DNA of 64,000 nucleotides, taken from positions 56,601,169 through 56,665,168 of the forward strand of contig OX485806.1 of the NCBI GenBank assembly GCA_950295325.1. The letters are read 5' to 3'. Origin of the DNA: Polytrichum commune (taxonomy: Eukaryota; Streptophyta; Polytrichopsida; Polytrichales; Polytrichaceae). Below, piece after piece: positions 15,962 through 23,123 of the stretch; within the stretch, counting starts at the first letter, position 1; every line of letters starts with the position of its first letter. Made by a program: the position numbers and the translations under genes. The notes under the pieces are model-generated. The model ran no database searches, had not been told where the DNA came from, and was given only the letters and a program-made list of their open reading frames with translations.

Positions 15962-16593
15962 ATGATCACTCGGTCGCGTGCGAGAGCAGAGAGAGAAAAT
16001 AGTAGGACTATTGAGAAACAGAGGCGCATTGAGAGAAAGAAGAGGTTTGCTACTAGAGATAACGTAGTGACCTCGTACAACTTGAGGTCAACCATGGGAA
16101 GAAAAGGGGGTAATTCAACTAAGGCTACTCACAGTCGTTCAAAGCGAAATGTTGAGACATTTGAAAAGGCTGAGGTTGCTCCCATTAGGTTATTCTCATT
16201 AGGAGAGGAAGACACCTCTATGGAAAATGAAGAAATTCAGGTATGCTCTGGTTACATTACATTCAGTTTGAATTTATTCAAATTTTATGAGTCCCCTGTA
16301 TAGTTGGCTTGAAAGGAATCATTATGGCATGAGAGGCAACTATCCTATGCATTCGAGTAATGATATTTTCGATGCTTTGTCGCATCATTGCAAGTTTGGT
16401 ACCTAAACCTGGTCCCGGGCAGAGGCAGCAGCAACTACGAAACGCAACCTCTAGTGCATCTACTTCACAGCACACTGGGCAGAAGGTCATTAGGCAGACT
16501 CAACGCAGCAGGGAGGGTGTGCATTGCGACGAGGACAGCTTGGATCGAGGAGAAGCCAGCATGGAGACGTATGGCGAGTACTCCACCGAAGAG
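15962..16593 (+). CDS. Passenger gene, N-terminal exons 1-2
   Basis: Exon 1 starts at ATG 15962 (MITRSRARAERENSR), encodes 93 codons of very basic sequence, and ends in phase 0 at CAG|GTATGC (16240). Exon 2, best read as 16423-16593, encodes a Gln- and Ser-rich stretch ending ...GEYSTEE before GTAAAT, again in phase 0. No known domain is seen; the basic start could bind DNA or act as a nuclear signal. The 16394 AG is an alternative acceptor but would hit a stop in the required frame. Confidence 0.6.
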
Positions 16594-16624
16594 GTAAATA
16601 GTTACACCGAAACTGGTTGTTAGG

Positions 16625-17130
16625 TTTCCATCTTAGAGTCAGAGGGATCAGTTTTGGCCCCGAAACTGATTTTGAGGGTAGAGTCTGAGTGAGAGGTTTC
16701 GGCCCAAAACCGATTTTGAGCGTGGGAGATTTTTCTTCCGTTTCGAACCCGTCCCCGGGTGTCTAAAAATAGACATCGTTTTGGCCAGAAACTTTAAGGG
16801 AAATGAACGTTTTGGAACGGCCAGGAGGAAATAATACCATTTCGTAAGGGTTGTACGCAAGAGGCACACGGAGTGCAGAGGGAGTCGAACGGGGTGAGGG
16901 TAGAGTCTGAGTGAGAGGATTCGGCCCCGAAACTGATTTTCGAGGTAGAGTCTGAGTGTGAGGGTTTCGGCCCCGAAACTGATTTTGAGTGTAAAGTCTG
17001 AGTGAAAGGGTTTCGGCCTCGCAACTGTTTTTGTATGTTAAGTCTGTGTGAGAGGGTTTCGGCCCCGAAACTGTTTTTGTCTGTAGAGTCTCTATGAGAG
17101 GGTTTCGGCCCCGAAATTGTTTTTGAGCGT
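16625..17130. repeat. Intronic tandem repeat with TTTCGGCCCCGAAA palindromes
   Basis: Imperfect units of about 45-53 bp built from GAGTCTGAGTGAGAGGGTTT followed by CGGCCCCGAAACTGATTTTG. At least six copies are visible, at about 16653, 16706, 16922, 16967, 17010, 17056 and 17105. Each unit contains the palindrome TTTCGG-N2-CCGAAA or a variant. It lies in the intron between exon 2 and the mini-exon array. Confidence 0.85.
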
Positions 17131-17155
17131 GGGAGATTTTTCTTCCGGTTCGAAG

Positions 17156-19211: not shown

Positions 19212-20883
19212 CACGAACTGGGTCTTGCTGCGGACGATGGTGTATGTCAGCTTGTGGAGCAATCAGAAGGAGAAGTCGCAGTTCAGAAGGTAGCTGTGGC
19301 ACTTCGCATGAAGATGGGAAAACTAGTTGTTATGTCAAACCCGGAGCTTACCGACAGTTGGCTTCGTAAGGTACGTACACTAAACCTTTGTCCATATCAA
19401 TCTTTTCAGCTTATCCTTGAGAAGAGGACTTAGGAACTCACAAGCTCTTTGTCACACAGATTGAGCGACATTACACCCTAAATTCACTCTCACCGGAACT
19501 CAACTTAGAGAAGCTGCAGCTCATTGCAACTTCTAGGGCGTCTTCGGCATTCAAAATAAAATGGCTAGAATACTTTAATTCATCTGCTTTCATTCGCGAG
19601 GCCCGCAGGCTACCTCCCAAACCCATCAACGAAGAGAGATTGGCAAATTTCCTGGCTAAAGCAAGTTTCTGGGTAGGAGTAAGTCCACTGATTTTATGAA
19701 TTTTCAGTTAATTGAGTTCCTCGTTGGCATGTATTTTACCTGCCTCACATTCTTAATTTCATTGACGCAATCATGCATTTGTTGTCTTGCTTATGGCATT
19801 GATCCAGCTAATGCTTATTGTCTTGCTTGCCAGATTTATGAGCAGGCCAATATTATTTTTGACGAGACAATGCGTCAAGACCGACTTCCTATCAACATGA
19901 GTGTTGCCAGTGAGCTGATGTTGTTGCCCGTGTATATCGAAGACTGTCGCATGAAGTTATGGGACCATGCGTTCAACACCTATTTCAGAGGACCCGATTC
20001 CTTCAAAAAAATTGACGACTTTGTTGGATTTAATGGATCTAACCTTGTTGTCCGCAGAGTTCTTTTTAGGTACGTCTCAAATCTTGAAGTACTTTTCATT
20101 AATTTCAGTAATTGGTTTAGTTCATATTATGTGATTTGCTAGTTCGAAAGTTCTAGAATGTAATGTTATGTGCTATTTTGTAACACAGGTACTTTAAGTA
20201 CGAGCTTTTGGCCAAAGGAGCTATTTCCAAAGAAGACCTTCCTGTATTCTTGACCACATGGCTTGATAGATCAAACTCAGCTTGCATGTTCTCAGCTCTT
20301 CAACAACGCACGTGGACAACTTCTCACCTTACCGGCGGTGCCTGGTATCTTGATTGCGCTCCAAGTTTTACTCCTTCGTTTGAGACTGAGCTCAGGAAGT
20401 CAAGGGAGGTTGTAGGTGAGTCTGGAATTGAAATGGTGGAATTACAGGGCATTGAAGATGACAATGAGAGGGCAAAGGCAATGAAACGACGCATCGAAGA
20501 GGACCGAAAGAAAGCGCTGAGGGTCAAGGAGGCTGAGGAGAAAGCTGATCAAAAAGAGCAGGAGAAGCTACAGAAGTCACTGGAGAAGTCCACCAAGAAG
20601 GGCAAAAAGGAGATGAACCCCCCCCCCAGAGCCGGAAGGTAAGAGTCCCGTTGCTCCAAGTCCCACATATGAATCTGGTTCTCATGCTCCAACATTTTCT
20701 AGAGGAACAAAACGCGATTCCTCCTACGAGCAGTTGAGTCAAATTCCTATTTTGACATCGGGGGATGAGCTCGATATGCACCTTCAAGAGCTCATTCTCA
20801 ACGCCTCAATGGAGGACGTTCTTGGCGGTGACACGGAGGAATTCACCCCTTCCTACAACGAGTTGAAAAGATTCATGCTTAAG
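19212..20883 (+). CDS. Passenger gene, central helical region and charged linker
   Basis: Exons 19212-19370, 19460-19672, 19834-20069 and 20189-20883 join in consistent phases. I do not recognise a domain. Visible stretches include WLRK, IERHYTLNSLSPELNLEKL, LPVYIEDCRMKLWDHAFNTY and FLTTWLDRSNSACMF. The last exon has a highly charged Lys/Glu/Arg helix (about 20430-20610) that could form a coiled coil. A run of ten C at about 20618-20627 breaks the frame; past it the frame resumes as SPVAPSPTYESGSHAPTF and continues to the GT donor at 20884. The C run may be a real slippage mutation or a sequencing error. Confidence 0.6.
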
Positions 20884-21624
20884 GTACTGTTCTTCCATAA
20901 TTTTCTCATAACATGTTTGCCTTCAAATTTTTGCATTTCAATCTGGTCCAAATTTTTCATTCAGTAGGTATTGCTTTTCATATTTCAGCAATCGGGTTTT
21001 CTTTCGGGACCGAAACATGGATTCTGACAACTAAGGGCTCGAAAGGGAATAGTTAATGCTTTTGTTTCGGGACCGAAAAATCATATGGAGTGCGAGCTGA
21101 GCCCTCAATGGACTCGGCAATTTGTTTTGTGCTTGCAATCGGCCATTTGTTTTGTTATACCATTTCTTTAAAGGACTTCATCGCATTATAATGTGTATTA
21201 TGATCCAACTTAGTTTTGCAAGCCCCTCTTGTTGCAACTCAACAGTAGCTTACAATATTTGTAGTAACTGTGATTGATATCTAGAGTGGCACCACTTTAG
21301 GAGGGTACAAGAATGTATAAAGAATTTGTTTTGCATTCCAGTACTAGGCAATGTACAAAGCAAGGAGGATTCTTTTAATCCTGTTGATAAGGGTCCTCAA
21401 ATTTGTTATTGTCCGACAGTCACTGCTTACAACTTTTTGATCAAGTCACACATTATCAGGGAGATTTATGTCTTGTGTTTGTTGTAGAGGTAGGTAATCT
21501 TCAAAATGATTTAAACTCCTCGTTGAATGGAACTAGTTGAATGTTTGTTCTATTCACCCTAAACCTTGTTTTATTGAAGTCATTTGTCATGTACAAATTG
21601 TGACAATCTCCTTTGATTGTGCAG

Positions 21625-23123
21625 CACTCAAAAGACAAAACCCGGCACTACAAAGGTTCTCCGGAAGACCATCCATGTTTGGACTTGATTCTTGCAGATA
21701 TACCGGAAGGTCTTCCTGTTCCTGGCATATCAAACCCACCATCGTCCATTCCCGCTTGGAATCAAGAATCGAAAGAGTGGTTACAACCACTATTTGACTT
21801 TGCCGACCAACATCTGCATGACGACGGGGCAATTATTTTGTTTCACCTTTTTCGTATGAGTACGAAGTCCAATATTCTTGGATATTGCAAATCGTATGGC
21901 TTTGCAATTCGGAAAGAGTGGTGGGGAATGAACCGCCTTCATCTTACATCCCCAATAAATCCAGCATCAACTGTAAGATAATGCTTAAGTCTTCTTTCTG
22001 ATCACCGCTGCTTAGTACATTCAGTTTCAATTTCATCCTTGAGGTAGTTCTGAGTGTAGACCCACCAAACTATTATACTCACACAGTTGTGTTGTTTACT
22101 TTGTGAAGTAATATTGATCTTTATGTCTTGTACATTGTAGACCATGAGGTTCGGTATTTCATTGGCGGTCAGAAGCGTGTCGGGGTCACCTGCATCGAAG
22201 TTTTCATTTCGCCATGTCCCTGAATTGGATCCTTATGGGGTGGATGTTGCACGGGATGATATTCTCCAGAACTTGGTCTCTCGTGAGGACCAACTAACTA
22301 ATGGATCCACACCATGGCGAGGGCCTCGTGAAAAGTCCGTGCTTCTAATGCAAATGCTAATTGAAGCATGTAGCTCCCCAGGGGATATTATTCTAGACTG
22401 CACGGCAGCGACCGGTAATATGTCTTTGTAATCTTCCATTTCAGTTGGTTAATCGTTAATATTGTTTTGTTCTACAAAATTCATAGTGTTTTTTGTACTA
22501 AGTTTTTCCAACTTCTTTATTTGCAGGATCTTCCATTCATGCCTGCGGTAATGTGCACCGTCACATTGCGGCATTAGAGGCTGATGTAGATATTTTTGGG
22601 GGCTTACTTGCTCCATTGGTTATCTCTAGAGCAGCCTCTGAAGTCACTCTTGAAGACCGTGTCACTTGTGTAGAGGATCCTGAGGGTGAAGATATCCCCG
22701 TTGAGAGGATTGTGAAGAGATCTCGGTTTACTAAATGAGTATGGTCCACAAATTCTCTTACCAGTGTCATGTTTTTTTGTGTCATTTCATCTAAAGTTGA
22801 GTTATGAACATGGTACCATTGGCATTTGCAGATGCGATAAATTGGGCTATCCTATTCACCTGCCTTTTTTTTGTGACCCTGAATTCTATCCCAGGCCTCC
22901 AAAGTCTTGGCAACTTCCTACATACGCAAATGATATTGCTAATCAACTAGCTGGAGGTTCTTATCAGACATTTAGATCTAAATATCATCCGGGAAGAGTT
23001 TTAGAGTTTTTGGATATAGAAGCTTTTGAGTCTGATGGTCAGGCCTCCTCTGATGCAGATATTAGTGATTCTAGAATGTCTTCATCATCAGGTGATCACA
23101 GTGATTCGGATATGATGAAATAG
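21625..23123 (+). CDS. DNA methyltransferase domain (beta class, N4-C/N6-A type)
   Basis: Exon 21625-21972 has CLDLILADIPEG, in the place of motif IV (normally [D/S]PP[Y/W]), then WLQPLFDFADQHLHDDGAIILFH, typical of the segment after motif IV in the N6_N4_Mtase family. Exon 22141-22414 has WRGPREKSVLLMQMLIEACS and SPGDIILDCTAATG, the approach to and first half of motif I (normally K-P-x-x-L...GD-x-V-L-D-P-F-x-G-x-G). An intron splits motif I. Exon 22527 continues SSIHACGNVHRHIAALEADVDIF, matching the GR-x-x-x-x-x-E-x-D stretch. Motif IV before motif I is the beta-class order. The catalytic PPY is changed to IPE, so activity is uncertain. The last exon (22832-23123) has a Ser/Asp-rich tail; using it needs the GT at 22726, otherwise the protein ends at 22738. 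Confidence 0.75.

Follow-up and report, generated by a model that had tools for sequence, protein, structure and literature searches.

We describe a decayed DNA transposon, 13.9 kb long (positions 10146–24089), in a 64,000-nt stretch of the moss Polytrichum commune (assembly GCA_950295325.1, contig OX485806.1, forward-strand positions 56,601,169–56,665,168; hereafter the window, whose coordinates are used throughout). The transposon resembles Mutator-like elements (MULEs) and carries two genes: a broken transposase gene and a divergently oriented, multi-exon gene with a putative ParB-like part and a methyltransferase-type domain. The family to which it belongs has defined ends in two elements, a conserved two-gene layout, homology to methyltransferases, at least 150 copies in the genome, two exons under purifying selection as judged by pairwise counts, and palindrome arrays that are specific to subfamilies.

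The reading that we favour, and which we regard as evenly balanced between right and wrong, is that the product of the second gene binds palindromes within its own element and marks or shields the element's DNA. The proposed steps are as follows: (i) the second gene would give rise to an accessory protein, consisting of a putative ParB-like DNA-binding domain, a middle part that appears helical, and a beta-class amino-methyltransferase domain, (ii) a dimer of the ParB-like domain would recognise the palindromes in the manner of ParB at parS, (iii) the methyltransferase domain would thereby be delivered to the DNA of the element itself, and (iv) the element would be marked, or kept open against host silencing. 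Perhaps the accessory protein would also control its own gene. Self-recognition of this kind would be akin to that by VANC of the Arabidopsis VANDAL MULEs, built from prokaryote-type parts.

Ends and gene content of the element

Short inverted repeats form the ends of the transposon and are flanked by a 10-bp target duplication. An earlier reading made from the window sequence alone (the sequence-only reading) had given the transposon as 15962–23123, which is too small an interval. It had also placed the second gene inside the terminal repeats and divergent from the transposase, and both statements hold: inverted repeats and target duplications enclose the gene in the window and in a diverged relative on contig C1 (the C1 element), and the transposase is read leftward (−) while the methyltransferase gene is read rightward (+). 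The features of the window copy are listed below; amino acid identities refer to the C1 element.

10136–10145, no strand: left target-site duplication, TATTTTTTAC; 9/10 match to 24090–24099
10146–10179, + strand: left terminal inverted repeat, starting GGGCGAAGCTATTTTGCGAGCGGTGAGCAG; 34 nt, 82% complementary to 24056–24089
11655–15294, − strand: degenerate transposase gene, with a C-terminal SWIM-like CxC...CxH
15962–16240, + strand: exon 1, basic N-terminus; from open reading frame and splice sites
16423–16593, + strand: exon 2; from open reading frame and splice sites
16628–17790, no strand: tandem arrays of intron 2, 46-bp units with TTTCGGNNCCGAAA palindromes and then 127–129-bp units
16652–21078, no strand: 12 TTTCGGNNCCGAAA palindromes, 6 of them exact and the others with at most 2 mismatches; all lie in introns
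18088–18707, + strand: exon 3, ParB-like motif layout VRPTL...FYV...CDGNHRRQAW; in-frame TGA at 18496–18498
18840–18984, + strand: exon 4, reading into a TGA at 18985; 37.5% identity
19212–19370, + strand: exon 5; no match in the C1 element
19460–19678, + strand: exon 6; 27% identity
19834–20069, + strand: exon 7; no match in the C1 element
20189–20883, + strand: exon 8; frameshift at a poly-C tract near 20617
21625–21972, + strand: exon 9, methyltransferase motif IV region, with LDLILADIPEG and DGAIILFH
22141–22414, + strand: exon 10, motif X/I region, SPGDIILDCTAATG; Pfam N6_N4_Mtase
22527–22738, + strand: exon 11, motif II-like GNVHRHIAALEAD and stop codon
24056–24089, − strand: right terminal inverted repeat, pairing with 10146–10179
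24090–24099, no strand: right target-site duplication, TATTTATTAC; 9/10 match to 10136–10145

The pair of terminal repeats ranks first among the 33 inverted pairs found in an inverted-repeat scan of the window. At 34 nt, the repeats fall under the length thresholds of stricter scans, and they are absent from a BLAST self-comparison of the window; their weight is increased by the flanking TATTTTTTAC and TATTTATTAC, and by a related end in the C1 element (window positions 24036–24084 are 86% identical to its left end, over 49 nt). A 9/10 duplication match has a chance of ~0.0026 among pairs of equally AT-rich 10-mers from the window.

The C1 element is ~15.2 kb long, with inverted repeats of 56 nt (79%) and a perfect 10-bp duplication, TCTGTTACCT. 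Its layout is that of the window copy: transposase leftward, methyltransferase gene rightward. Eight of the 11 window peptides from exons 3 to 11, the exons included in this comparison, match the C1 element in order with 23–43% identity; the exceptions, without a match there, are exons 5 and 7 and the second part of exon 8. A further copy, on contig C4, is 95% identical to the C1 element over 8 kb. Both ends were inspected in the window and C1 elements, and one end in the C4 copy. Between the transposase and ParB-like exons of the C1 element (L007:2341–3760) lie frames that look kinase-like by eye; the Pkinase match is not significant (E=0.21).

The target duplications of MULEs are 8–11 bp long, and inverted repeats with a 10-bp duplication are present in both the window (9/10) and C1 (10/10) copies. 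The window transposase survives as open pieces at 15294–15073 and 15072–13552, continuing in another frame from 13658 to 13185 and then at 13112–11655; it is interrupted by a TAG within the reading frame at 15073, by a change of frame near 13657 and by another TAG. Three of the pieces show 38–48% amino acid identity to the C1 element and, across the frame change, the transposase is 48–59% identical to a 380-aa open frame of that element. The relative's transposase contains a SWIM finger below the Pfam cut-off (E=0.039). No MULE or Mutator transposase profile matched the transposase pieces, which are degenerate, in Pfam searches at E up to 10 and up to 1. The assignment to the MULEs is likely, and we use the label "MULE-like" because the duplication length is in range and the SWIM match is weak, yet no MULE profile is found among the degenerate pieces. 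Of the Mutator-like transposon in the sequence-only reading, the terminal repeats stand and the duplication length fits, while a profile match does not accompany them.

The second gene occupies 15962–22738 on the + strand, with 11 exons placed and a joined product of 1119 aa. Introns are GT-AG and consistent in phase, except that exon 4 runs into its stop; no clean exon 4–5 junction was found. The multi-exon, transposon-borne gene seen by the sequence-only reading is supported by its 11 exons and GT-AG introns between terminal inverted repeats, and every motif quoted there was recovered: CDGNHRRQAW in exon 3, LDLILADIPEG and DGAIILFH in exon 9, SPGDIILDCTAATG in exon 10, and GNVHRHIAALEAD in exon 11. 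The window copy itself is a dead pseudogene, with the TGA in exon 3, the stop of exon 4, the frameshift in exon 8, and the broken transposase. Searching the full-length spliced protein against a protein database gave no match at E up to 1 among the 7998 candidates sharing most words, and peptide patterns of the gene gave no match in viral contigs.

Three smaller observations concern the element. Firstly, the frame following exon 11 (22833–23122, within the frame 22716–23123) resembles by eye L007:8038–8268 of the C1 element, and is a possible twelfth exon. Secondly, the terminal repeats contain 7-bp GTGAGC(A/G) tandem units (window 24041–24075, and element ends), a second candidate binding array. 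Thirdly, the observed/expected CpG ratio is 0.90 in the array, 0.71 in the exons and 0.77 in the transposase, versus 0.55 outside the element, which would fit less decay of 5-methylcytosine.

The methyltransferase-type domain

The beta-class DNA methyltransferase domain named by the sequence-only reading is borne out by Pfam PF01555 (N6_N4_Mtase), which exceeds its curated cut-off in both copies: in the window peptide at profile positions 160–210 only (E=3.7e-6; 27.5 bits versus a cut-off of 26.7), and in the C1 relative at positions 1–216 of 221 (E=1.1e-7; 32.4 bits). Alignments with phage methyltransferases cover 90% of the domain at 21–25% identity (best E 1e-5), and DpnA matches residues 167–231 (E=2.8e-5). 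In the beta-class layout, motif IV comes first and motifs X/I follow; this is the order found in the window domain.

The canonical motif IV is (D/N/S)PP(Y/F/W). Across 30 exon-9 loci from the genome (407.8 Mb searched, in 64 contigs), 29 instead carry DIPE, within ADIPEG, and the remaining one carries NIPE, within ANIPEG; the motif is VDIPDG in L004 and VDIPYG in L005. P0001, the only database relative found with the methyltransferase part (444 aa; 38% identity; E=2e-29), has ADVPDGL aligned to the window's ADIPEG, and its tail seems to continue into an intron directly behind TAATG, the end point of exon 10 in the window. Decay of the window copy alone is ruled out as the source of the change: since 29 of the 30 loci have ADIPEG, the departure from the canonical aromatic residue characterises the family, in most copies seen. 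We therefore limit the claim to a methyltransferase-type domain with an altered motif IV.

An alternative that we consider possible, albeit on the unlikely side, is that the protein recognises specific DNA sequences while its methyltransferase fold is catalytically dead; it would act in anti-silencing, autoregulation or as a transposase helper, and would methylate no DNA. The motif IV variants above count in its favour, as do the window motif I, DCTAATG rather than the consensus DPFxGSG, and the VANC proteins, which are not known to have an enzymatic activity. A dead enzyme fits less well with the low ratio of non-synonymous to synonymous differences (pN/pS) in the methyltransferase exon (see below), with the retention of the Asp and second Pro of motif IV, and with L004 and L005, where motif I reads DLFVGTG and DLSVGTG and where, in L005, DIPYG persists.

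Palindrome arrays

The window contains 14 matches to TTTCGGNNCCGAAA at up to 2 mismatches, as compared with a mean of 2.27 and a maximum of 8 in shuffled sequences (0/100 shuffles reach 14). Besides the 12 intronic sites listed above, two further matches lie at 15585, upstream of the gene, and at 5099, beyond the element; the six exact sites all lie within introns of the methyltransferase gene. Genome-wide there are 477 exact sites, versus 20 for a reversed control pattern. Proximity was assessed with 50 of the 477 sites, all of them from C1. An exon-3 or exon-9 hit is present within 10 kb of 39 of these sites; rotated controls gave a mean of 0.57, and one rotation in 1000 reached 39. A chance origin of the palindromes is rejected by these control counts. 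The two-bp centre of TTTCGGNNCCGAAA is variable in sequence; a spacer of three instead of two gave a single match, under the chance mean of 2.14.

At up to one mismatch, at least two TTTCGGNNCCGAAA sites occur at 25 of the 30 exon-3 loci examined—an element-specific motif in tandem repeats of non-coding DNA—and at least one occurs at 23 of the 30 exon-9 loci. The spacing of the sites differs by subfamily, at about 46, 52, 117, 213, 223, 250 and 257 bp. The C1 and C4 elements have no TTTCGGNNCCGAAA; instead, a tandem array of TTGTGCGCNNGCGCACAA lies between their transposase and ParB-like exons. TTGTGCGCNNGCGCACAA occurs at 37 sites in 11 clusters genome-wide (0 in the control), and two of these clusters are the C1 and C4 elements. 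Both palindromes have GTTT...AAAC outer arms and a 2-bp centre. The prokaryotic parS site is TGTTTCACGTGAAACA; its outer arms are the same as those of TTTCGGNNCCGAAA and TTGTGCGCNNGCGCACAA, which may be due to chance.

Palindromes of parS-like form are TGTTTCGG-NN-CCGAAACA at 19125 in the window and TGTTTGTGCGC-NN-GCGCACAAACA in another subfamily. A fuller version of self-recognition, which we put forward tentatively and with more doubt than confidence, is a complete module of prokaryotic design: a ParB-like protein fused to a methyltransferase-type domain with a remodelled catalytic motif would act together with clustered parS-like palindromes inside the element, many of them in the introns of the gene, and protein and sites would co-diversify, so that each subfamily would have an address of its own by which to mark itself epigenetically and evade silencing. 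The sequence-only reading had suggested that the element may mark or read its own DNA, or counter silencing; the reading half of that suggestion gains subfamily-specific palindrome arrays, many of them intronic, with binding as a prediction from sequence.

It is rather unlikely, in our judgement, that the palindromes are bound by a host protein—a repressor, for example, or a CpG-sensitive factor—while the ParB-like protein targets something else, such as the GTGAGC terminal repeats. The palindromes are intronic and contain CpG, short tandem GTGAGC units are indeed present in the terminal repeats, and one subfamily lacks the palindrome though its ParB-like exon is 83–86% identical; all of these suit host-factor sites. 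The C1 and C4 elements, however, pair another palindrome with a much diverged ParB-like sequence, a combination that fits self-recognition better than it fits host-factor sites.

The ParB-like exon

An exon 3 alignment of 58 rows (the window and public databases) is largely invariant at VRPTL..DL.KLEqEFVhGYReGa.VFYV ... FFVCDGNHR..AW. The order RP...L..L..F..GY...FYV...DGNHR..AW resembles the ParB box, and CDGNHR is present at 28 of the 30 genomic exon-3 loci. Exon 3 is matched by 451 metagenome database proteins at E up to 1 (sources ena, jgi, lgn and ncbi; the best 120 of the 451 are listed), some of which may come from the same species. The ParB-like assignment is putative and follows from motif layout: of the ParB/sulfiredoxin-like domain of the sequence-only reading, the layout, including DGNHR-x-x-AW, stands, while profile searches lend it no support and a fold model of the exon was of low confidence (see below).

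Copies in the genome and selection

At least 150 copies of exon 3 were scored (1197 candidates) and at least 150 of exon 9 (1143 candidates), and all 300 are on contigs C1–C7. For 90/150 scored exon-3 hits, a scored exon-9 hit follows downstream, in the same orientation and no more than 20 kb away (shifted-position control: mean 0.67, maximum 3); for 5/150 there is an exon-9 hit upstream or on the opposite strand. Most of the loci examined are free of stops (51/60), with stops in 9/30 exon-3 loci and 0/30 exon-9 loci. The pN/pS is 0.226 for the methyltransferase exon 9 (30 loci, 435 pairs, mean pS 0.051) and 0.373 for the ParB-like exon 3 (25 of 30 loci, 300 pairs, mean pS 0.190). These are pairwise counts, made without a tree, on related copies picked as best hits; five of the 30 exon-3 loci, which fell short of 618 nt, were left out, as was every codon with a stop. 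By these counts, both exons are under purifying selection. As a separate observation, synonymous divergence is lower in exon 9 than in exon 3 (the pS means above come from different locus sets, L012–L071), which hints at exchange between subfamilies or at locus choice.

The low pN/pS across copies bears on the idea that the second gene is a mere passenger, in which case a host or viral gene would have been captured a single time and spread by hitch-hiking, with the palindromes as by-products of repeat expansion in introns. Transposons often capture genes, and the C1 element additionally has the non-significant kinase-like frames mentioned above. We nonetheless consider this improbable: beyond the pN/pS values, gene and transposase have been kept together in two elements whose peptides are only 23–48% identical (59% in one transposase stretch), and identical palindrome arms recur at unlike spacings.

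That the gene is a host gene into which the window transposon is nested by chance has only its multi-exon structure to recommend it and is rejected as highly improbable on copy number and colinearity (at least 150 hits on C1–C7, 90/150 colinear with the methyltransferase exon) and on its position inside inverted repeats with target duplications in 2/2 elements checked on both sides. No host gene away from transposon ends was seen, where ends were inspected on both sides in these two elements only.

Several points weigh against self-recognition through the palindromes. Regarding the sites, (i) 11 of the 50 sites listed have no scored exon hit within 20 kb, (ii) L017–L021, five of the 30 exon-3 loci, have neither the TTTCGG palindrome nor a clear substitute, although their ParB-like exon is 83–86% identical, (iii) the palindromes may be there for a host factor, or may simply travel with the introns, and (iv) while the pair just outside the TTTCGGNNCCGAAA core covaries (z=6.5; 109 sites remaining of 195 after duplicate 38-mers were dropped), a distant position expected not to pair does so too (z=6.2), so that relatedness of the copies may explain the covariation of the flanking pair. 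Regarding the protein, (v) ParB homology of exon 3 finds no support from Pfam, NCBIfam, PHROGs, PDB sequence profiles or hhalign, (vi) an AlphaFold model of exon 3 alone gave a predicted local distance difference test (pLDDT) of 37 and is not used as evidence, and (vii) with DIPE in place of the usual motif IV, the enzyme may be altered or inactive. Regarding the copies, (viii) 60/150 scored exon-3 hits lack a scored exon 9 within 20 kb, and (ix) the pN/pS of the C1–C4 pair is 0.53, which is not significant (p=0.17).

Relation to known systems

Self-recognition and shielding of transposons in eukaryotes is best known from VANC, which is not known to have a methyltransferase or ParB domain. The present family shares with the VANC system of the Arabidopsis VANDAL MULEs a transposon-encoded accessory protein and element-specific motifs in tandem repeats; VANC targets are often tandem repeats and vary considerably between related VANDAL elements (PMC5735166). 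The sites here differ in being palindromes with arms of 6–10 bp. The moss family may be an independent solution to transposon self-recognition and shielding.

The closest published case by description is a transposon of the brown alga Ectocarpus, in which a 1104-aa protein with a ParB-like and an N4C/N6A methyltransferase part is encoded opposite to the transposase; the paper also mentions green and red algae (PMC12477816). The two cases have in common a methyltransferase part and a gene opposite the transposase, the ParB part being putative and at motif level in the moss, and the products are similar in length (1119 versus 1104 aa). The moss element differs in its MULE-like nature, 10-bp duplications, at least 150 copies, and palindrome arrays; the two are likened by description rather than by sequence. 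A similar guess, that the algal ParB-methyltransferase accessory proteins bind their own transposons, is already published, and the accessible text names no binding site for them (PMC12477816). In the literature seen, partly in excerpt, this paper is the only one to place both domains in one transposon; an earlier mention in other lineages is possible.

The "undescribed system" of the sequence-only reading accordingly has to be narrowed: a transposon-borne ParB-methyltransferase gene is on record for a brown alga, so that the class is known, and what appears new is that the carrier is MULE-like, that the element holds palindrome arrays, and that the copies share a non-canonical motif IV. The family offers a candidate binding site deduced from sequence, two swappable site specificities and many open copies, together with a methyltransferase-type domain in which no copy examined has the canonical catalytic motif; the published proposal for the algal proteins can thereby be put to the test in simple binding experiments.

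Prokaryotic and phage ParB-methyltransferase fusions have the same domain order; unlike the moss gene, they are single open frames with a canonical motif. One such frame was encountered in the assembly: L002, on contig C12, encodes 501 aa with a canonical DPPY and a ParB part named by eye, and hhalign of the exon 3 profile against L002 gave no match. It lies beside phage-like genes and is probably contamination or an associated phage. N6_N4_Mtase matches were found on the short contigs C12 (L002; 61 kb) and C10 (L001 and L003; 47 kb).

The N4CMT of bdelloid rotifers is not known to be transposon-borne, unlike the gene described here. The two have in common a bacterial-type amino-methyltransferase in use by a eukaryote (PMC8885841).

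A neighbouring inverted repeat

Elsewhere in the window, at 5469–6742, inverted repeats of 240 nt (90%) surround a fragment of the eukaryotic small-subunit ribosomal RNA (5732–6227; E=5.2e-121). The right arm overlaps a large-subunit ribosomal RNA match that begins at 6553, and the whole looks like a rearranged piece of ribosomal DNA.

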